Positions 10,863-30,094 of a stretch of DNA of 35,340 bases are shown piece after piece. The stretch lies in the IMG/VR virus record IMGVR_UViG_3300030107_000940, positions 1-35,340 of that record; one strand, written 5' to 3'. The first letter of the stretch is position 1, and every line of letters begins with the position of its first letter. The position numbers and the translations under genes were made by a program. The stretch comes from a virus. The notes below the pieces were generated by a model that saw nothing but the letters and a program-made list of their open reading frames with translations, was not told where the DNA came from and made no database searches.

Positions 10863-11261
10863 ATGATATTTAGAAATGAATATTATTTCTTAAGTAATAT
10901 GTATCCTTGTAATATTTGTTATGAGGAAGGTTCTTATAAGAGCGTTGAAAGTGTATTTCAGATGATGAAATGCGCTGATGATAATGAAAAGAAAGGCTTT
11001 GAATTCTTAAATGGATTTGAAGCTAAGAAGCGTGGAAGGAGAGTTAAATTAAGAAGTGATTGGCATGAAGTAAAAGTTGATGTGATGAAAAGCATCTTGG
11101 AAAGTAAATTCTCAGACCCTGAATTATTAAATAAATTAAAAGCCGTGAAAGGTGAAATCGTTGAAGATAATCATTGGGGAGATCGGTATTGGGGAAGATG
11201 TAATGGAGTAGGAAAGAATATGCTTGGTAAGTTGTTAATGGAAATAAGAGATGGAGGTTAA
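10863..11261 (+). CDS. NADAR (YbiA-like) family protein
   Basis: 132 residues covering the whole NADAR/DUF1768 fold. Recognisable family blocks are FLSNMYP (9-15), YKSVESVFQ (25-33), the GRRVKLRSDWHEVKVDVM segment (58-75), WGDRYWGRCNGVGKN (105-119) and the C-terminal LGKLLMEIR. NADAR proteins are predicted or shown to act as N-glycosidases on ribosylated substrates, including removal of ADP-ribose from guanine in DNA and cleavage of riboflavin intermediates. The ribosome binding site is AAGGAG, 5 nt before the ATG. It is directly followed by a SLOG-family gene with 1 nt spacing. A role in countering host ADP-ribosylation defence or in NAD-linked metabolism is an inference. Confidence 0.88.
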   Translation: MIFRNEYYFLSNMYPCNICYEEGSYKSVESVFQMMKCADDNEKKGFEFLNGFEAKKRGRRVKLRSDWHEVKVDVMKSILESKFSDPELLNKLKAVKGEIVEDNHWGDRYWGRCNGVGKNMLGKLLMEIRDGG

Positions 11262-11262
11262 T

Positions 11263-11709
11263 ATGTATGATCAAAGTGTAAGAGTATTAGTATGCGGAGG
11301 AAGAGACTTTAATGATGCGAGTACACTCCGAGAAATATTAGATCAAGTACATGAAGACTTGAACATCAGTTGCATCATTGAAGGTGGAGCAAGAGGTGCT
11401 GATAGATTAGCTGGTGCATGGGCATTGGTTAGCGGAATAGATCGGGAAGTCTATCATGCTGATTGGAATAGATACGGCAGACGCGCTGGATATCTACGCA
11501 ATGTACAAATGGCTAATGAAGGTAAGCCAGATCTGGTAATTGCATTCCCCGGTGGTAGAGGAACAGCAATGATGGAATCAATAGCTAAAGACAGATCTAT
11601 TCCAGTTTATAAAGCTAAAGAATGGATGATAAGAAGAGTATCTGTACACGGTTATGGATCTTTAAAGTGTTGTCTAGCTACTGCAATGGAAATGACAGGA
11701 GAACGGTAA
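11263..11709 (+). CDS. SLOG-superfamily (DUF2493/YspA-like) protein
   Basis: 148 residues from the ATG at 11263, chosen because GGAGG lies 4-5 nt before it; an in-frame ATG at 11251 has no site. Rossmann-like nucleotide-binding motifs: VLVCGGRDF (8-16), EGGARGADRLAGAWA (40-54), the DWNRYGRRAGYLRN block (67-80) and FPGGRGTAMM (95-104). These are the hallmarks of the cpYpsA-related SLOG family, which binds nucleotides or nucleotide-derived ligands. Its ligand is not known. It is coupled to the NADAR gene (ATG one base after the stop) and followed by an unrecognised gene after 1 nt, so the group acts as one operon. Confidence 0.88.
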   Translation: MYDQSVRVLVCGGRDFNDASTLREILDQVHEDLNISCIIEGGARGADRLAGAWALVSGIDREVYHADWNRYGRRAGYLRNVQMANEGKPDLVIAFPGGRGTAMMESIAKDRSIPVYKAKEWMIRRVSVHGYGSLKCCLATAMEMTGER

Positions 11710-20169: not shown

Positions 20170-20425
20170 AATACCACAAGGCTTCGGACCAAATTCCACA
20201 GGAAGAAAAGGCGGCAACTTAAGAATCCGTTGTACTGACAAAGAGTATAACGCGATAGCTTATGAAGCCTCCAAGCTAAACTTATCGTTAGCAATGTTCT
20301 GTAGATGGTGTTCCGTTCAAGTAGCCCAAAAGCTAAAAGAACATAGGGATATGGAATCTACAGCCATATCTATTGGAGAAACAGATGACAGCATTAAAGA
20401 AAATGGAGTACGAAGAGGAGCTTGA
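20123..20425 (+). CDS. Ribbon-helix-helix-like DNA-binding protein
   Basis: 100 residues, AGGAA about 5 nt before the ATG. A disordered Pro-rich N-terminus (1-30) precedes LRIRCTDKEYNAIAYEASKLNLSLAMFCRWCSVQVAQKLKEH (33-74), which fits one strand plus two helices of the Arc/MetJ type, followed by an acidic tail. Such proteins usually bind operators as dimers. It may regulate the operator-like dyads nearby, e.g. TGACACACA, which is inference. It overlaps the RecD-like gene by 41 nt. Confidence 0.6.
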   Translation: MAYEPPLKIAIPTPSEIPQGFGPNSTGRKGGNLRIRCTDKEYNAIAYEASKLNLSLAMFCRWCSVQVAQKLKEHRDMESTAISIGETDDSIKENGVRRGA

Positions 20426-21671
20426 ATTAGATGTTACACAGCGCGAAGCGATTGATGCGTGTTGTGATTCTAAGCGTAGAATTGTTGCCGTTACAGGTGC
20501 TGCTGGTACTGGTAAGACTACTATTCTACAAAACGTCTACCGCACATTATATAAGCAAGGTAGGCGGGTGGTTCTCTGCGCTCCTACTGGTAAAGCAGCT
20601 AAAAGAATCACAGAGGCAACAGGAATTGAAGCTTATACGATTCATAGGCTATTAGAATATCCTCATCCGGGAGAAAGAGATGAGAAAACAGGAAAAGCAC
20701 TCGTATCAACTGACCCTAAACGAGATCGTAACAACCCGATTGAATATATGGTCGTCCTTTGTGACGAGTATGCTATGGTTAATCTTGAGGTGCATCGCAA
20801 TCTTCTTGATTCTCTTCCCAATGGCGGTGTTATTCGTATGTTTGGGGATGCTAACCAGCTTCAGCCGATTGAAAACAACAAAAGGTTGCAAGCACAGCCC
20901 TCATCTTTCTTAAAAATGTTAGATAAGTTCGATGGAATAAGATTAGAAACTATCCATCGACAAGCAGAAGGATCAAACATCATCCTGAATGGTCGTCGTA
21001 TCATTTCAGGTAACATGCCAACTAGAACAGAAGACTTTGAAATAAAGATAACCAATGAACCAGTACAAACTGTATTAGACTTTATCCAAGACAACATCAC
21101 CGAAGAAATAGATTACGGAACTGTTGAAAACCAAATCATATCTCCAACAAAAGCTGGATGGGTAGGAACTGAAGCCTTAAATGCTGCTATCCAACAGTTA
21201 CTCCAACCAACTGATGCCAACTATAGAATCATTGAACGTCATAAATGGAGTAACGTAGAAGAACAGAGGATATATATTGGCGACAAAGTAATCTTTACTG
21301 TCAATAACTATCCCTTGGAAATCTTCAATGGGGAAACAGGAATAGTAGATAGATTCCTAGACGATGGATCTATCGTGATAAACTTTGGAGACAAAGAAAT
21401 AGGCATTCCAGTGTCATTAGAAATGGCAGGAAGACATGGAACCTATTACATGAATCCCCAAAAGGATTTAGATCTAGCATATGTAATCACAACCCATAAA
21501 GCACAGGGAAGTGAATACAATAGAGTCTGCTATGTAATGAATAAATCTAGATCATATCTGTTAAACCGAAAGAACTTTTACACTGGAATTAGTAGGGCAA
21601 GGACTCATGTAACAGTGATCTCTGATGCGTCTTCTATTAATTCAAGTCTATATAAAAAGGGAGATAAATAA
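20385..21671 (+). CDS. RecD-like SF1B DNA helicase
   Basis: 428 residues from the ATG at 20385, chosen because GGAG lies 6 nt before it (TTG at 20373 is in frame but overlaps that site). Motif I GAAGTGKTT (38-46), Ia VVLCAPTGKAAKRI, motif II-like VVLCDEYAM, motif III FGDANQLQPIEN, motif V/VI in YVITTHKAQGSEYNRV and FYTGISRARTHVTVI. This is the AAA_30 plus UvrD_C_2 arrangement of short RecD/Dda-type helicases, which unwind 5'-3'. In phages this type helps origin opening, fork restart or recombination. It directly precedes the polymerase region. Confidence 0.92.
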   Translation: MTALKKMEYEEELELDVTQREAIDACCDSKRRIVAVTGAAGTGKTTILQNVYRTLYKQGRRVVLCAPTGKAAKRITEATGIEAYTIHRLLEYPHPGERDEKTGKALVSTDPKRDRNNPIEYMVVLCDEYAMVNLEVHRNLLDSLPNGGVIRMFGDANQLQPIENNKRLQAQPSSFLKMLDKFDGIRLETIHRQAEGSNIILNGRRIISGNMPTRTEDFEIKITNEPVQTVLDFIQDNITEEIDYGTVENQIISPTKAGWVGTEALNAAIQQLLQPTDANYRIIERHKWSNVEEQRIYIGDKVIFTVNNYPLEIFNGETGIVDRFLDDGSIVINFGDKEIGIPVSLEMAGRHGTYYMNPQKDLDLAYVITTHKAQGSEYNRVCYVMNKSRSYLLNRKNFYTGISRARTHVTVISDASSINSSLYKKGDK

Positions 21672-21958: not shown

Positions 21959-22172
21959 AATAGAAAAGAATTTTCCTATACCTAAAGGAGGAAAATGGAG
22001 AACCATGCTAATAGAATTAGAGGTTGGAGATAGTGTCTTAATTGATCAAGCAGCGCATAACAAATCAAAATCATCATTAAGAAGTGCATTATTCTCAACG
22101 GCTGCACTTATAGGAATAAAATTAGCAACTCGTACTGAAGGTGATAAAGTAAGAATTTGGAGAATAGGCTAA
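21939..22172 (+). CDS. Hypothetical protein, GDSVLI...VRIWRI type (77 aa)
   Basis: 77 residues, AGAGGAGAG site. The layout (FKIEKNFPIPKGGKWRTMLIELEVGDSVLID, a Ser-rich turn, then an Arg/Lys strand TEGDKVRIWRIG) follows a widespread class of very small phage proteins that I have seen called DUF7303-like; I am not certain of the family name. Its function is unknown. The stop TAA overlaps the ATG of the polymerase gene (TAATG), so it is coupled to polymerase expression. Confidence 0.7.
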   Translation: MENEEFKIEKNFPIPKGGKWRTMLIELEVGDSVLIDQAAHNKSKSSLRSALFSTAALIGIKLATRTEGDKVRIWRIG

Positions 22173-24616
22173 TGTCCGAAGTCACTGAAGCATGGCTAAT
22201 GAGAGAGTTCACTACTAGAGCTAAGTCATGTCAATTACAAGTAGACTGTCTTGGATCTGGAGATGTAAACGCAGAGATATGTATAATAGGGGAAGCTCCC
22301 GGAGAACATGAAGCTAAAATGAAAATGCCACTAGTTGGCGGTAGCGGTAGAATGTTATGGGATATTCTTAGGACATTCGATATATCAAGAAAGGATTGTT
22401 ATGTTACGAATGTGGTTAAGAAACAAGTATCACTTAGCTCTAAAGCTGATGCTAAATCTCCTGTTAAGAAAATTGAACTTGAACATTGGGAAGGGTTATT
22501 GGATTGGGAACTGGATAATTTACCGAACCTCAAATATGTTCTCGTCCTCGGCAATTACGCCTTACATGCTCTTGTCGGGGAAACAAAAATTACTAAGTGG
22601 AGGGGATCAGTTGTCGATTGTGTTGTGGGAAGACAAAGACGAAATGTAAAAGCTGTAATTACTAACAACCCTGCACATATCCTACGCAATCTAGCACTAG
22701 AACCTATGTTCAAATTTGATCTGGCTAAATTAAGGAGAGTGTTAGATGGACAATTCAGAACACACAGAATTACTCCAACAATTAACCCTACTTTCGATGA
22801 CGCTATGCGATATCTCGGAGAGCTTAGTAGTAGCGATCAACCAATCGCGTTCGATATCGAAATTATCGCCAATGAAACCGCCTGTATCGGATTCGCAAAT
22901 AACTCAACAGATGGTATATCAATCAATTTTAGAGATGCTAGAACAAACAGATATAGCACTACTGAAGAAGGATTGCTCCGTGAAAGAATACAACGATTAC
23001 TATCTGATCCAAGATCCAAACTCATAGCACAAAATGGATCGTTTGATTGTGGATGGCTATGGTACAAAGATAGAATTCACGTTCCTAATGTATGGTTCGA
23101 TACTTTATTAGCACACCATACACTATATCCAAGGATGCCTCATAACTTAGGATACCTTACCGCACAATATACTGACCATCCATACTACAAAGATGATGGA
23201 AAGACTTGGCGAGAAGGAGGAAACATAGATGAGTTTTGGGAATATAATGTTAAAGATTGTTGTATCACTTGGGCTTGTCATGCCGCACTTCTAAAAGAAT
23301 TAAAACAACAAAACCTTGAAGACTTCTTCTTTAACCATGTCATGCGCTTGCAACCACACTTAGTTAAGATGCAAGTAGGAGGAGTTCGTGCTGATATATC
23401 ACTCAAAGAAGAAATATCCAAATCACTGAAACAAGAGCTAGATGAAAAGCTTGGACACTTTCATAAACAAGTAACAGATCTTACTGGCGATCCTAGTTTC
23501 AGACCCAATCCAAAATCCCCACGACAACTTAGTGAGTTATTCTTTTCCTATCTTGGACTTGTCGGACGAGGTAGTAGTACCAACAAAGATAACCGACAAC
23601 GTATGCAAGATCATGCAAGGACAACTCCAGAACAAAAACAAATGCTTGTTACATTAGATGAGTATCTAAGAGAGCATAAGTTTTATAGTACCTATGCCAC
23701 CATGCAAGTAGATCCTGATCATAGAATCAGATGCGAATACAAACAGTTCGGAGTTCAATCTGCTCCGGGAAGATTAAGTTCTAGCAAAACATTATGGGGA
23801 TCAGGAATGAATCTCCAGAACCAACCGCATCGGGCTTATCCAATGTTCATAGCAGATGATGGTTACATGCTTAGTTACTTTGACTTACGACAAGCAGAAG
23901 CAAAGGTAGTAGCTTACATCTGGAATGTTCAAGGACTTATAGAAAACTTTACTAGGGCTGAAACAGAAGATGGATTCGATGTTCACCGAGGAAATGCTTC
24001 AAGGATATTTAAGTTACCTTACGAAGAAATTCCTGGTGGTGATTGGGATGATAACCTCCAACCAACTATGCGTTACTTAGGTAAACGATGTGTTCATGGT
24101 CTTAACTATAGGATGCAAGCTCCTAAGTTAGCAGAAGTATGTAACATACCAATGCAACAAGCGTATGAAGCATTCTCTTCTTACCATAGAGCATTTCCAG
24201 AAATACAAGAAGGATGGCGAAAGACTATTAACACAGTCAAAGATGATAAGATGTTGTTCACTCCATTAGGTAGAAGACTTATATGGATAGAACGATTAAC
24301 AGAAGAAAGTTTTGATAGTGTTATCGCATTTGTTCCTCAGTCTACGATTGGGGATAAAGTAGCGAGTGTTATATATAAATGTCACGAAGATCCTGAATGG
24401 CCTGAAGATGCTAGGATGTTATTGAATGTTCACGATGCATTGATAGCTATACATAAACCTAGCAAAGCCAAACTAGTACAAAGCATCATGCGAAAACATG
24501 CTGAAGAACCTATTATAATACGAGGACAACCAGTTACTATTTTCACAGACTTCAAACAATCCAAGCCAGATGAGAAAGGAATTCATCGCTGGTCTACATT
24601 GAAAGATGTAGCATGA
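22172..24616 (+). CDS. UDG-like domain fused to family A DNA polymerase
   Basis: 814 residues from the ATG at 22172, placed in a TAATG overlap with GGAG 9 nt upstream. Residues 15-190 form a family-4-like uracil-DNA glycosylase domain: GEAPGEHE (40-47), MPLVGGSGRML, YVTNVV (77-82), NNPAHILR (165-172). Residues 220-375 are a 3'-5' exonuclease with FDIE (227-230, Asp228 and Glu230), QNGSFD (287-292) and YNVKD (358-362), so proofreading looks intact. Residues 395-800 are a PolA domain: motif A FDLRQAE (Asp571), O-helix Arg634/Lys638/Tyr646, motif C NVHDA (His754, Asp755). It is the replicative polymerase of the phage. Odd: the UDG lacks the usual cysteines and His, and the O-helix has His642 where Phe/Tyr is normal. 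Confidence 0.92.
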   Translation: MSEVTEAWLMREFTTRAKSCQLQVDCLGSGDVNAEICIIGEAPGEHEAKMKMPLVGGSGRMLWDILRTFDISRKDCYVTNVVKKQVSLSSKADAKSPVKKIELEHWEGLLDWELDNLPNLKYVLVLGNYALHALVGETKITKWRGSVVDCVVGRQRRNVKAVITNNPAHILRNLALEPMFKFDLAKLRRVLDGQFRTHRITPTINPTFDDAMRYLGELSSSDQPIAFDIEIIANETACIGFANNSTDGISINFRDARTNRYSTTEEGLLRERIQRLLSDPRSKLIAQNGSFDCGWLWYKDRIHVPNVWFDTLLAHHTLYPRMPHNLGYLTAQYTDHPYYKDDGKTWREGGNIDEFWEYNVKDCCITWACHAALLKELKQQNLEDFFFNHVMRLQPHLVKMQVGGVRADISLKEEISKSLKQELDEKLGHFHKQVTDLTGDPSFRPNPKSPRQLSELFFSYLGLVGRGSSTNKDNRQRMQDHARTTPEQKQMLVTLDEYLREHKFYSTYATMQVDPDHRIRCEYKQFGVQSAPGRLSSSKTLWGSGMNLQNQPHRAYPMFIADDGYMLSYFDLRQAEAKVVAYIWNVQGLIENFTRAETEDGFDVHRGNASRIFKLPYEEIPGGDWDDNLQPTMRYLGKRCVHGLNYRMQAPKLAEVCNIPMQQAYEAFSSYHRAFPEIQEGWRKTINTVKDDKMLFTPLGRRLIWIERLTEESFDSVIAFVPQSTIGDKVASVIYKCHEDPEWPEDARMLLNVHDALIAIHKPSKAKLVQSIMRKHAEEPIIIRGQPVTIFTDFKQSKPDEKGIHRWSTLKDVA

Positions 24617-25848
24617 ACTACAAAAAGATAGTTCCAGAAGACTCATTTATAGGACAATATATGAAGTACATGTCCGTAGTAGAAACAGCAGAGTCTTATG
24701 ATTTCTGGTGTGGAGTATGGGCATTAGGAACAGGAGTTGGTCGTGACGTATATGTGGATCGCCCTAATAGTCCAGTTTATCATAATTGGTATATTATTCT
24801 GGCTGCTGAAGCGGGGGTTACTAGAAAGTCTACAGCTATTAGCAGCATATCAAATGTTGTTAAGGAGTCTTATCCCTTACTTACCGGGAGAACAAGCCCA
24901 GAAAGTCTTGAACTTCTGCTCCATGAACGAACAACAGAAAGCGGAACTGCTAGAGCGCATTTCGCAGTTAGTGAACTCGTTACAATCCTTGGAAAAGAAG
25001 GATACATGAGTACAATGCCGGGACTTTTGACAGATCTATATGACTGTCACGAAGTTAGGCGCATTCCGGGAACCTTAAAGAGTGGGGAGTTAATACATAA
25101 AAATGTCTATGTCTCGTTTATCTCAGCATCTACACCTTCATGGCTTGTCACGGCAATCAATCCAACAGTTATCGAAGGAGGGTTTACTAGCAGAGTTATC
25201 TTTGTTGTTGATGATAATAGAAAACGAGCTATTGCGTGGCCCGAAAGAAGAAGAGAAGGATCAACAACCAATCTCAAATGCCTCTTCAAGAAGACAACAG
25301 AAGCTGCAAGAGATGAGGGAGCAATACGAATATCAGAAGGAGGACTCCGAAAATTTAGGAATTGGTATAACCGTAGAGCCAATCATGTTGATCCTTTCTT
25401 ATCTAGCTTTGAAGCTAGAGAGGATGATCATGTCCTACGACTCGCCTCAACTCTTTCCATCAATGACGGAACACTTGAGCTTCATGCTAGACACATCTCG
25501 TCAGCCATTGGAATTATCAATAGAGCTAAGTCTAGAGCCAATCAACTCTTCGGAGGGGACTTTTCGCAAAAAGCTAGAATTAGTGGAGCCATCGAAAGAG
25601 TCAGAGAAATCCTCATCGAATCAGGAACAGATGGAATTAAACATTCCGACCTCCAACGACGAGTAGTAAGACATGTAGATGTTAAAGAATTAAAAGTACT
25701 AATGAACATACTACATGAGTGTGGAATGATTCAGATATTTAAAGTGGGAAGAGGCACATTCTATAGAGCTACTAGAACTATCGAGAAGTTTGGGGTGCTG
25801 ACCGAAGTGCTTTCGACAATGAATCTGGAGCAGGAGCTTGGGGCCTAG
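24613..25848 (+). CDS. DUF3987-like ATPase, putative replication helicase
   Basis: 411 residues, starting in a 4-nt ATGA overlap with the polymerase. It has the DUF3987 pattern: an N-terminal FWCGVWALG segment, then a modified P-loop EAGVTRKSTA (66-75, Lys72-Ser73-Thr74), GRTSPESLELLL, the FAVSEL strand as Walker B-like, and an ISASTP sensor strand. The C-terminal part ends in a winged-helix-like segment (about 325-390: SDLQRRV, LMNILHECGMI, RGTFYRATR). DUF3987 proteins occur beside phage replication genes and are thought to be helicase-like. No other DnaB-type helicase or primase is seen, so this may be the fork motor. The 3' end overlaps the convergent gene by 71 bp. Confidence 0.75.
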   Translation: MNYKKIVPEDSFIGQYMKYMSVVETAESYDFWCGVWALGTGVGRDVYVDRPNSPVYHNWYIILAAEAGVTRKSTAISSISNVVKESYPLLTGRTSPESLELLLHERTTESGTARAHFAVSELVTILGKEGYMSTMPGLLTDLYDCHEVRRIPGTLKSGELIHKNVYVSFISASTPSWLVTAINPTVIEGGFTSRVIFVVDDNRKRAIAWPERRREGSTTNLKCLFKKTTEAARDEGAIRISEGGLRKFRNWYNRRANHVDPFLSSFEAREDDHVLRLASTLSINDGTLELHARHISSAIGIINRAKSRANQLFGGDFSQKARISGAIERVREILIESGTDGIKHSDLQRRVVRHVDVKELKVLMNILHECGMIQIFKVGRGTFYRATRTIEKFGVLTEVLSTMNLEQELGA

Positions 25849-28800
25849 AAGAAAATTTTGTAAGATCTACATCGATCTTACGTCCTACTCTAAGAGTTAT
25901 TTGTTCTTCTAATACATCTTCCCATCCTCTAATCAGAGCCATTTTTCTAGCGTCTAAAGCTTGGATGCGTGTTACTATAGAATCGTACTCGTCATTCCTA
26001 TCTTGGATATTTTTCCAAGGCGTTCCGGGACCAACAGCAGAAGTTGGAATAGTTTTTAAATGCTTTTCTAGTCTTTTAATATCTGGATCTAACAACTTAA
26101 CTTTCTTTAGTACCTCCGCAGCAGAGCCAGCCACTATTAAAAACGCTGGATCATCTGATAAAGTTCTTAATACAGAATTTCCTTTTACAAGATCACCATC
26201 CACATGGGCTATTCCTCCAGCCTTCAACGTATTTTTAAAATTGGTAGATAAATTCTCTAATACCTTTGTTGCAGAATAGACATTTTTACCTATTTCATCC
26301 CATCTTTTTGGTCTTTGTGTTCCTCCCCACAATGGATTTAGATAGCGCATTGCAGACTTGGCCCCTACTTTTGATTGATCAAGGGCCATGCTTAATCCTC
26401 TTTCAAAATTTCCCCCACCTTTAGGATCTGCTCCAGCTTGGTATGCTTCGTTTACTAATAAGTACTGGCCTCCTGCCCATCCGAATATATCTTGTACTGC
26501 TTGACTAAAAAATCTTTCGTGATGACTACCTACATACTGGCCCTTACCTGTTCTAGATGTTAAACGCTCTCCTCTCATAAACGGATTAGTACGCAAAACA
26601 CTAACATCACTTCCCGGATCATCAGGATCTATTTTTTGCTCTACTGCTAATCCTAATTGAATGTCAGCCCCTGTTAATGATCCTATTAAACTAAGAGAAG
26701 GAGGTAATGCTACATCAGTAACTTTTGCTAACCCTGCCTTCCAGTGTTCCCTTTCAACTCCTTTTGCCATTTTAATGTTTCCAACATCGGAAAAGTTAAA
26801 TACAGCATCCATACCATCCATAACTGCTCCTTTATACAATGACCATTCAGGAGCTACTGGAAGAATAATTGCATCTTTAGGATGCCATCCGGGAACAAAA
26901 TAAATAAAGTTATTTGCTCGTTGTTCTGTAGTATACTTATTATAAAGGTAATCTTGATACGTCCACTTCTTGTTTGGATCGTGGGGATCTGGAAATGTTA
27001 TAGGATCTCCATTCGCATCTACTGATCCTTCATGGACATGTTTGTTCCATATCATTTCACTTACTGTTGGCATCCCAATCAAAGCTGCTGTGCCAGCAAA
27101 GAATTTTACTGGATGCTTTTTAGCTGCGGCTCCCATACTATTCCAAGACTGTAACATTGCCGACCCAAATGGAAATGTCTGATTAAAAACTTTCGTGGCT
27201 CCCGATGCTCCTATTTTTCTCATGTCTCCAGAAACTAATTTAGCTTTATCAACAGCATCACGTTGTATTTGTGACATAGCTTTAGGAGTTAATTTTTTTC
27301 CTGCCTCTTCTACTGCTATTATCTCATCACCTAATGCTCTTAAATATGCTCCATAAGCTGGTCCCTCATGGAAAGCATTAGTTAAAGTATTCCAAAGATT
27401 GCCCATCAAAGCTATTTCATGTTGATCACCAAGGAACTTAGCTATTGGTCCCTTTACAATACCTTCCATTATTTCTGGCATTGTATCACCACTTATTTGA
27501 GAGAAAGAAGTAGGAGCCATTCTTCCTGCTTCTGATTTTGCTCTGGAAATAGCACTGTTTATAAATGAATGTTCAAGTCTAGCTTGAAGCTTTTGTAATG
27601 CTGTAGGAGAAATTCCTTCTATGCCAGCGTGAACTCCAATCCTATTGGCTAAGTACTTAGATAAATCACCAGCAGCATTAACAAAAAATAATCGTCCAGT
27701 ACCAGTTATAGAAGCAAATGGAGATGTCATTCCACGCCAAACACCATCTCTAGCAAAAGTGTTTATAGCTGTCTGCCCTGCGGAATATATACCCGATGTT
27801 GGGGCGAACAAAGAAAGATTACCAGTAGTAAATCTAGTCATTACATTTTTCTGGTGATTTGCTGCTTGCAAAACAGCATTAGTAATTTGTGGACTTAAAT
27901 CTAATGCCGCTTTCAATCCCTTATCAGGAACATAATAAGCTCTAATCTCTCCTCCCTGATGGACAGTAATAATATCTCCGGGAAACTTAGCTTTTAAATC
28001 TTCAACAGTGCCAGAAAAACCTTCGACCATTCTTTTTGATGCTTTATCTCCTGTAAACGGAACAAAAGGAAGAGAGTCAATATTAGATAGATCTGTTGAT
28101 TTTCCTAGATAAACAGTATCTCTCGCAGTAGGACTATCAGTGATAGCATCATTCATCTTTGTCCTAGAAACATTTCCAGCAGCCCCTGAAACAGCATTAA
28201 AGCCTTCTCTATGAATTCCAGCTAACTTGTCTAGTATGTTTCCTTTGAAGCTCTGTTCGTTTGAATCTTTTATTACAGCAACACCATATCTTTCTAGAGA
28301 ATCAAAGACATCTAGTGTTTTATTAAAGTTTATATCATCACTTCTTTTTCCATATACTGATAATAAACTAGCATCTTTTCCTTGGGTGCTATGTACTCCT
28401 AAAAGCGTCCTAGAAAGTTTTCTCATAAACTGGTGTTCGGCTTTATCATGCACATGCATATATGCTAACCGTCCATCAACAGTATTAGATTGTCTAAAAG
28501 CTTCAGCACTTCCATGCTTTCCGGGAGTATGAACTCCTCTATGAACAGCATAATCTAATAAATTATCATACGTTTCATGGATATCTTTCATTAATTTAGC
28601 AACAAGTGGATTATTATCTGCCTCGGCTATTATCTTATCCAGTTCTGTAGAAGGCCGTTTACCTTTTTTCCACAATTCGGCAGGATCTTCTGGCTTCCCT
28701 TTTCTTGCAACTTTCTCTGCTAATGCATTCATCGCTTCTGTAAATAGGTTCTTCTCATCCTTTTTTAATTTTCCAAATCTCGCTCTGAGTTCCATAGGAG

Positions 28801-30094
28801 AATATGATTTTTTTCCGTTTCGAGGAATAAAGTTTTGTCCAAAAGTTCCTGTTCTTAACCAGTTCCTAGCTACCCCTGTACTATCTACATGAGCATTTGA
28901 TACTACCTTTGCGATAGTTTCTGGATGAACACCTATAGCTCTAAGTGAATCACTAATTGCAGTAGCTTTATCTAAATGACGTTCAGTTAAAAAACTTGCA
29001 CTTGATTGATCGTCCGTTCCAGCAATCGTAGTACCCTTACCTCTTCCTGTACGAACATAATAAGCAGCAGATGCAGCAGTAAGTAATGATGCACCAATAA
29101 TATATCCAAGATCTTTTACATCTTCCCAATCTTGTTCCCGTTGTACTTTTTCATCATACTCTCTGAGTATTGCATTCTGCTCACTAATAGAAAGCTCTTC
29201 CCCAGAGGTAAGTGTTCTTCCTCCAACTAAATAATTTCCTACTTGTCCATCATTTATATAACGAACATTAGAAAATATTGTTTCAGGATCTAGATGAGAA
29301 CTATCTGCTACAGCATCTGGTTTCTTGTCTGGCTGTTCTGGTAACTTTTTTACTCCTGCAAGAGCTTCTTCTGAAAATATGGTAGGAGTATCTGTAGCTT
29401 TACTAAGTCCATAATCAAGGCCATAACCAATACCAACTTGCCCTGCTGCTCTCTTTCCAAATCCCTTGCCACCTTGAACAAGAGGAGTAGCAACATACCC
29501 TACGCCCTTAAGAATATTTCCAGCAGTACCTAAATTTGTTAAAGGAGCCGCTGAAACAGGAAGAAAGTTACCAAAAATTCTAGCTGCTTTATCTTCAGAA
29601 GATACAGGCATTTCTATGCCCAAAGCTTTATTCGCTCCAGCTTGAATAGCTTTTCCTGCTTTTATTAGTGCAGCATCAACTCCTTCTTTCGATGCTTCAT
29701 CGTATCTGTCTACCCATGTTTTTTCTCTGTGATCAGCCGATGCTGGATGTCCTACATATTCTACTGGAGTTTTAAATGTTTGAGTCTTTTCATCAAATTC
29801 TGGTTCAGGTTGCTTAGATGAAGCTTCTATTGCAGCACCACCCATACCAAGTAATCCAGCAAGTCCAGCAGACCAATCAGGAATAGTACCAGCAATAAAT
29901 TGTTTGATGGGATCAGAAGGTCGCTTCTTAATAAGAGGAGCGTTTGCTAATTTTCTTTGTCTAGCCCTAATATATCTTGGTAAAGCAAACGCAGTATCAG
30001 GAGGGACAACCTTACGCTTTTCATTATCGCTTTTGTCATCCTCTTGGGAAAGGTATCTGACCTTCCCAAATAATTTTTCTATTTCAGAATCCAT
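25778..30094 (-). CDS. Very large internal/ejection-type virion protein
   Basis: 1438 residues. No enzymatic motif recognised. It is Lys/Ala/Gly-rich with scattered hydrophobic segments: DWSAGLAGLLGMGGAA (about 73-88), FLPVSAAPLTNLG (177-189), a clear membrane-like helix GYIIGASLLTAASAAYYV (330-347), and FFAGTAALIGM further on. An internal repeat of the type (L/I)Fx(K/N)VRY(L/I) occurs at 8-15 and 273-280. Size and position, next to a run of three further structural genes and the lysis genes, match proteins ejected with the DNA in podoviruses (T7 gp16 type). This role is an inference. Its last 71 nt overlap the DUF3987 gene on the other strand. Confidence 0.8.
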   Translation of the reverse strand: MDSEIEKLFGKVRYLSQEDDKSDNEKRKVVPPDTAFALPRYIRARQRKLANAPLIKKRPSDPIKQFIAGTIPDWSAGLAGLLGMGGAAIEASSKQPEPEFDEKTQTFKTPVEYVGHPASADHREKTWVDRYDEASKEGVDAALIKAGKAIQAGANKALGIEMPVSSEDKAARIFGNFLPVSAAPLTNLGTAGNILKGVGYVATPLVQGGKGFGKRAAGQVGIGYGLDYGLSKATDTPTIFSEEALAGVKKLPEQPDKKPDAVADSSHLDPETIFSNVRYINDGQVGNYLVGGRTLTSGEELSISEQNAILREYDEKVQREQDWEDVKDLGYIIGASLLTAASAAYYVRTGRGKGTTIAGTDDQSSASFLTERHLDKATAISDSLRAIGVHPETIAKVVSNAHVDSTGVARNWLRTGTFGQNFIPRNGKKSYSPMELRARFGKLKKDEKNLFTEAMNALAEKVARKGKPEDPAELWKKGKRPSTELDKIIAEADNNPLVAKLMKDIHETYDNLLDYAVHRGVHTPGKHGSAEAFRQSNTVDGRLAYMHVHDKAEHQFMRKLSRTLLGVHSTQGKDASLLSVYGKRSDDINFNKTLDVFDSLERYGVAVIKDSNEQSFKGNILDKLAGIHREGFNAVSGAAGNVSRTKMNDAITDSPTARDTVYLGKSTDLSNIDSLPFVPFTGDKASKRMVEGFSGTVEDLKAKFPGDIITVHQGGEIRAYYVPDKGLKAALDLSPQITNAVLQAANHQKNVMTRFTTGNLSLFAPTSGIYSAGQTAINTFARDGVWRGMTSPFASITGTGRLFFVNAAGDLSKYLANRIGVHAGIEGISPTALQKLQARLEHSFINSAISRAKSEAGRMAPTSFSQISGDTMPEIMEGIVKGPIAKFLGDQHEIALMGNLWNTLTNAFHEGPAYGAYLRALGDEIIAVEEAGKKLTPKAMSQIQRDAVDKAKLVSGDMRKIGASGATKVFNQTFPFGSAMLQSWNSMGAAAKKHPVKFFAGTAALIGMPTVSEMIWNKHVHEGSVDANGDPITFPDPHDPNKKWTYQDYLYNKYTTEQRANNFIYFVPGWHPKDAIILPVAPEWSLYKGAVMDGMDAVFNFSDVGNIKMAKGVEREHWKAGLAKVTDVALPPSLSLIGSLTGADIQLGLAVEQKIDPDDPGSDVSVLRTNPFMRGERLTSRTGKGQYVGSHHERFFSQAVQDIFGWAGGQYLLVNEAYQAGADPKGGGNFERGLSMALDQSKVGAKSAMRYLNPLWGGTQRPKRWDEIGKNVYSATKVLENLSTNFKNTLKAGGIAHVDGDLVKGNSVLRTLSDDPAFLIVAGSAAEVLKKVKLLDPDIKRLEKHLKTIPTSAVGPGTPWKNIQDRNDEYDSIVTRIQALDARKMALIRGWEDVLEEQITLRVGRKIDVDLTKFSSRPQAPAPDSLSKALRSAPQTSR
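25860..25881. other. Inverted repeat inside the gene end, near the convergence
   Basis: GTAAGATC (25860-25867) and GATCTTAC (25874-25881), loop 6, lie 11 nt beyond the stop of the rightward DUF3987 gene and inside the coding end of the leftward gene. No T-run follows rightward, so it is a weak candidate for stopping early transcription. Confidence 0.3.

Follow-up and report, generated by a model that had tools for sequence, protein, structure and literature searches.

A conserved uracil-DNA glycosylase-fold domain with altered catalytic motifs in a clade of phage family-A DNA polymerases

The combination of a uracil-DNA glycosylase (UDG) domain, a 3'-5' exonuclease and a PolA domain in one polymerase is already known from several sources, namely, PaBG gp205 and the DNA polymerase I of the Lupandier group of Pseudomonas jumbo phages, for which the authors assume uracil removal (PMC7412058), the SPO1-type phages, the protein family phrog_17 and, by structural match, PDB entry 9qhs. 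The polymerase described here shares this architecture with PaBG gp205 and belongs to a clade without the Fe-S cysteines and the motif-B His. The SPO1-type polymerases (CampHawk, Exiguobacterium phage 132, LysYB1) also carry an N-terminal UDG-fold domain with altered motifs, which in CampHawk read QENPF and TSIVK; the CampHawk domain matched the Thermus thermophilus family-4 UDG at 5e-28. Unlike the protein studied here, the SPO1 type has kept the motif-B His and lost the motif-3 Asn. In SPO1, hydroxymethyluracil replaces thymine, and the PDB name of UdgX is "Phage SPO1 DNA polymerase-related protein". Entry 9qhs (2026) is the family-A polymerase of phiLo, a 1142-aa protein solved with a modified template, whose N-terminal part matched our UDG model (Foldseek E 1.5e-5; Z 14.4) and is about 23% identical to it in the domain; no paper on this polymerase was found in the literature searched. 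The nearest named phage relative is the polymerase of Microcystis phage Mel-JY34 (29% identity), a UDG-polymerase fusion of equal length. In contrast to the clade studied here, its type has the motif-B His in 21/29 and Phe54 in 25/29 sequences of a set in which the Desulfofustis-phage group is also counted. In the literature searched, which covered few subscription journals and does not prove novelty, we found no description of a clade-wide form with Asn and without Fe-S ligands, of purifying selection on it, of repeated His loss or of a link to T5-type polymerases.

Architecture and surroundings of the polymerase

The window, i.e., the whole stretch of DNA analyzed, comprises one virus record (IMGVR_UViG_3300030107_000940; 35,340 bases). 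Its replication features relevant here are:

20373..21671, + strand: RecD/Dda-like helicase, upstream neighbor in the replication operon (phrog_4412, phrog_325)
22172..24616, + strand: phage family-A DNA polymerase of 814 aa with UDG-fold, 3'-5' exonuclease and PolA domains
22247..22747, + strand: UDG-fold domain, residues about 26-192 (PF03167; AlphaFold2 pLDDT 92; Z about 23 to family-4 UDGs)
22823..23302, + strand: 3'-5' proofreading exonuclease domain, residues 218-377 (PF01612, DNA_pol_A_exo1)
23417..24502, + strand: PolA polymerase domain, residues 416-777 (PF00476, DNA_pol_A)
24613..25848, + strand: DNA primase-like gene, downstream neighbor in the replication operon (phrog_14296, E 2.7e-24)

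The polymerase gene was translated into 814 aa without internal stops, and Pfam placed the UDG domain PF03167 at residues 28-174 (E 1e-18), in agreement with an initial annotation, made from the sequence alone, that had proposed an N-terminal UDG module followed by a proofreading exonuclease and PolA. With a match to phrog_17 over residues 31-778 (E 4e-87), it is a member of the phage UDG-exonuclease-PolA polymerases, which hold three domains in one chain. The exonuclease residues D228, E230, D292 and D362 are intact and fall in invariant alignment columns, and D571, R634, K638 and Y646 of PolA are conserved; the PolA domain was similar to PolA large fragments with Z about 34-36. As judged from the alignment, the protein is a family-A DNA polymerase in which the catalytic residues of both domains are intact. 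The full-length AlphaFold2 model (pLDDT 91, pTM 0.87) and the TM of 0.82 obtained over the whole length with a similarly long, distant phage protein suggest that the UDG domain is docked in a fixed position. Residue 642 in the O-helix (window 24095-24097), the equivalent of position 762 of Escherichia coli PolA, is His in the window clade as well as in the Mel-JY34 and Desulfofustis-phage clades; the surveyed virioplankton types have Phe, Tyr or Leu.

According to PHROG, the genes around the polymerase encode a Sak4-like annealing protein, the RecD/Dda-like helicase and the primase-like protein, and the packaging, portal and major head genes lie at the opposite end of the window. A 1438-aa ORF without any PHROG match (25778-30094, - strand) opposes the replication operon; a large opposed ORF is also found downstream of the Mel-JY34 polymerase. 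A NADAR-domain protein and, immediately after it, a YspA-like SLOG protein are encoded elsewhere (10863-11709, + strand); they may be a counter-defence pair related to NAD/ADP-ribose.

No uracil- or modified-base gene was recognized among the scanned window ORFs, which is weak evidence of absence given that the record may be a fragment. Five other UDG-polymerase phages (L088, L091, L097, L098, L100) have thymidylate-synthase-like or hydroxymethylase genes beside the polymerase, and most of these also encode a dCMP/cytidine deaminase there. A link of the window clade to modified-thymine DNA was considered and rejected, since no thymidylate synthase or thymidylate-synthase-like gene was found in five of its records.

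Residue changes, conservation and selection in the UDG domain

The AlphaFold2 model of the UDG domain, computed from an alignment of 45 members of the window clade alone, was confident (pLDDT 92). The solved structures nearest to it were the family-4 UDGs of Sulfolobus tokodaii (Z 23.0), T. thermophilus (Z 22.9) and Thermotoga maritima (Z 22.4), ahead of UdgX (Z about 21) and of TDG and Mug, including 1mug (Z about 14). By sequence, the best match to a solved enzyme was T. maritima TM0511 (1.2e-13). On the basis of the model, the domain has the alpha/beta/alpha fold of the UDG superfamily (PF03167). The family-4 profile TIGR00758 (UDG_fam4) also matched (E 1.5e-20), although its 73.6 bits are below the cut-off of 125.3. 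The motif positions are:

22229..22249, + strand: Cys20 and Cys26 where family 4 has CxxC (Cys26 in 58/59 and Cys20 in 28/59 clade sequences)
22289..22303, + strand: motif A GEAPG, residues 40-44, GEAPGE at 40-45 (Glu41 in 59/59, Pro43 in 55/59, Gly44 in 54/59)
22331..22333, + strand: uracil-stacking Phe of PFVG replaced by Leu54 (alignment to TM0511 and UdgX)
22409..22423, + strand: motif 3 NVVK (TNVVK, residues 79-83), followed by Lys84 in place of an Fe-S Cys (alignment, clade counts)
22667..22687, + strand: motif B NPAHILR, residues 166-172, with Asn in place of the catalytic His (alignment, clade counts)

The domain shares with the family-4 enzymes (TM0511, T. thermophilus, S. tokodaii) the fold, the GE(A/G)PG motif A, the motif-3 Asn and Lys (N80, K83) and the motif-B Arg (Arg172); Glu41 of motif A is likewise kept. 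It differs from them in being fused to a polymerase and in several residues. The solved family-4 enzymes read NVVKC and HPSYLLR at the matching sites, whereas the window protein has Lys84 at the Cys position and Asn166 at that of the catalytic His of HPSxLLR. There is no CxxC, the fourth ligand position is not Cys, and the domain's two remaining cysteines, C76 and C150, lie off the family-4 ligand positions, C76 not being conserved. The alignment thus upheld the residue changes described in the initial annotation (GEAPGE, Lys after NVVK, NPAHILR with Asn for His, a C20/C26 pair instead of CxxC) and added one that it had overlooked, namely, Leu54. The hallmarks of UdgX are motif A GEQPG and an R-loop KRRIH with the cross-linking His (PMC10359453); the window protein has GEAPG and, in the alignment, no equivalent of the R-loop. 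In Mycobacterium smegmatis UdgX, each of F65A, N91A, K94A and H178A abolishes activity, F65 being the uracil-stacking Phe, and the Asn equivalent to Asn80 makes bidentate contacts to uracil (PMC10776899). Because the equivalent H178A and F65A variants are inactive, canonical uracil excision has probably been lost or is weak in the window clade.

To determine how widely these changes occur, IMG/VR was scanned for relatives (6 loci, then 80 loci), and residues were counted over 59 distinct UDG sequences of the window clade. Glu41 was present in 59/59, Asn80 in 57/59 and Lys83 in 58/59. Position 166 was Asn in 53 sequences, Glu in 4 and Ser in 2, but never His; position 84 was Arg in 40, Lys in 18 and His in 1, but never Cys; and position 54 was Leu in 46, Met in 11 and Phe in only 2. 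None of the 59 sequences had a genuine CxxC, the one seen in L076 being located far upstream of the domain as an artefact of an extended reading frame, and no conserved alternative His or cysteines were found elsewhere in the domain across the clade alignment. The loss of Fe-S ligands and catalytic His noted for one protein is therefore clade-wide. PF03167 was matched in 45/45 aligned members, which, together with a His loss fixed throughout the clade, argues against a chance finding. When bacterial and archaeal genomes were scanned for relatives, none of the 49 pattern matches was confirmed. In several relatives (L078, L079, L082, L083, L084; L115, L118-L121, L124, L126), the polymerase gene is longer and has in-frame stops and an insert-like interruption; no Rfam family of known introns matched in the seven searched.

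The five pocket residues E41, N80, K83, N166 and R172 were jointly more conserved than random sets of domain side chains (p 0.008) and than random sets of its polar residues (p 0.002). Pairwise dN/dS was about 0.02-0.10 in the UDG domain and 0.06-0.14 in the exonuclease and polymerase part; since the pairs share ancestry, these values are estimates and not independent tests. In one sub-lineage (L010, L012, L013, L014 and others), with dN/dS of 0.02-0.08, motif A reads GEAVN and motif B reads NEPG. By this measure, the UDG domain is under purifying selection like the polymerase, and it is needed even where the pocket is most altered. The term "degenerate", used in the initial annotation, is consequently appropriate for the chemistry of the domain, not for the domain itself, which is conserved and selected despite its residue losses.

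His loss in related fusions and the T5-type polymerases

The tree of the exonuclease and polymerase part, built with a quick method and having long branches among the named phages, requires a minimum of 8 switches between His and another residue. In the supported parts of the tree, His was lost at least 5 further times, 4 in the Mel-JY34 clade and 1 in the Desulfofustis-phage clade. The replacements in the Mel-JY34 clade were diverse, with Ala (L106/L107), Pro (L110 and, separately, L111/L114) and Asn (L112). Other fused UDGs, for example those of ctfzr933 and vir526, have family-4 motifs and cysteines.

A further relative was found by profile comparison:

L099:11098-11565 and L130-L134: N-terminal domain of T5-type polymerases, UDG remnant

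In hhalign, this domain aligned to the UDG profile, in the C-terminal half of the latter, with a probability of 96.7% (E 4.7e-10), as compared with 0.4% for a reversed-profile control. A PDB search with the single T5 sequence retrieved no UDG, so that the link is one between profiles. The comparison identifies the T5-type N-terminal domain as a stripped UDG relative, homologous to that of the window protein but, unlike it, without motif A, the Asn and the His. The N and C termini of T5 polymerase were reportedly the subject of a study by Andraos in 2004. The T5 enzyme is highly processive and strand displacing without accessory proteins (PMC12677585).

Possible roles of the domain

Considering what is established, namely, the fold, the residue changes, their conservation, the selection, the recurrent His loss and the T5-type remnant, we consider it most likely, at a probability of about one half, that the domain is a non-excising DNA-handling module on the replicative polymerase. 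It would have descended from a family-4 UDG, and in the clade ancestor it would already have been without the Fe-S cluster, with Asn for the catalytic His and Leu or Met for the stacking Phe. Efficient uracil excision would have gone, and purifying selection would have held the altered domain ever since. Docked on the exonuclease/polymerase core, its remaining DNA-binding groove and pocket may grip the template or the displaced strand and in this way serve processivity or strand displacement. In favor of such a role are the inactive UdgX variants, the suggested fixed docking and the properties of the T5 enzyme. What counts against this explanation is that E41, N80, K83, N166 and R172 are conserved beyond the need of a plain scaffold.

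That conservation would suit a reader of uracil or abasic sites, a role of the kind considered in the initial annotation. A uracil flipped into the pocket would then be bound but not removed, and the domain would stall the polymerase, or send it a signal, ahead of the fork. Glu41, Lys83 and Arg172 are conserved along with Asn80, whose equivalent in UdgX contacts uracil (PMC10776899), and the domain is fused to a replicative polymerase. We nevertheless regard this role as unlikely, since 57/59 sequences have no stacking Phe, the GEAVN/NEPG sub-lineage changed motifs A and B together while still under purifying selection, and neither other uracil-related genes in the window nor a thymidylate synthase in five relatives were found. 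Slightly more doubtful still is the specific proposal that the Asn-type pocket has been conserved as a site for sensing, not excising, bases, where uracil or abasic positions in the template are read before the fork reaches them. If true, a glycosylase-derived site in the replicative family-A polymerase of a bacterial virus would have an effect comparable to the uracil read-ahead known from archaeal family-B polymerases.

The same pocket conservation, including Asn166 in 53/59, could equally reflect an active glycosylase of altered chemistry or specificity. Mug of E. coli, which likewise carries Asn in this motif and has no Fe-S cluster, is active, so that excision is conceivable here too, and the fold resembles 1mug and TDG (Z about 14). 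Family 2, whose motif B is reported as MPSSSAR (PMC10359453), shows that the motif-B His is not shared by the whole superfamily. Against this stand the family-4 Glu in motif A, in place of the family-2 GINPG, the lost stacking Phe and the dead H178A and F65A variants of UdgX (PMC10776899); furthermore, excision from a single-stranded template beside the polymerase would be expected to leave abasic sites. This alternative, too, is improbable. By far the least probable is a functionless, decaying remnant tolerated at the N terminus. The loss of several canonical residues would fit such decay, which is largely refuted by a dN/dS no higher than in the polymerase; pocket residues conserved above the domain average and the recognition of the domain in all 45 clade members scanned also argue against it.

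UDG-polymerase fusions have so far been read as built-in uracil repair. The selection that followed the catalytic losses, the repeated loss of His and the T5-type remnant suggest that in many phage polymerases the selected role of the domain is not excision. For the N-terminal domain of T5-type polymerases, its recognition as a UDG remnant provides a testable functional idea.
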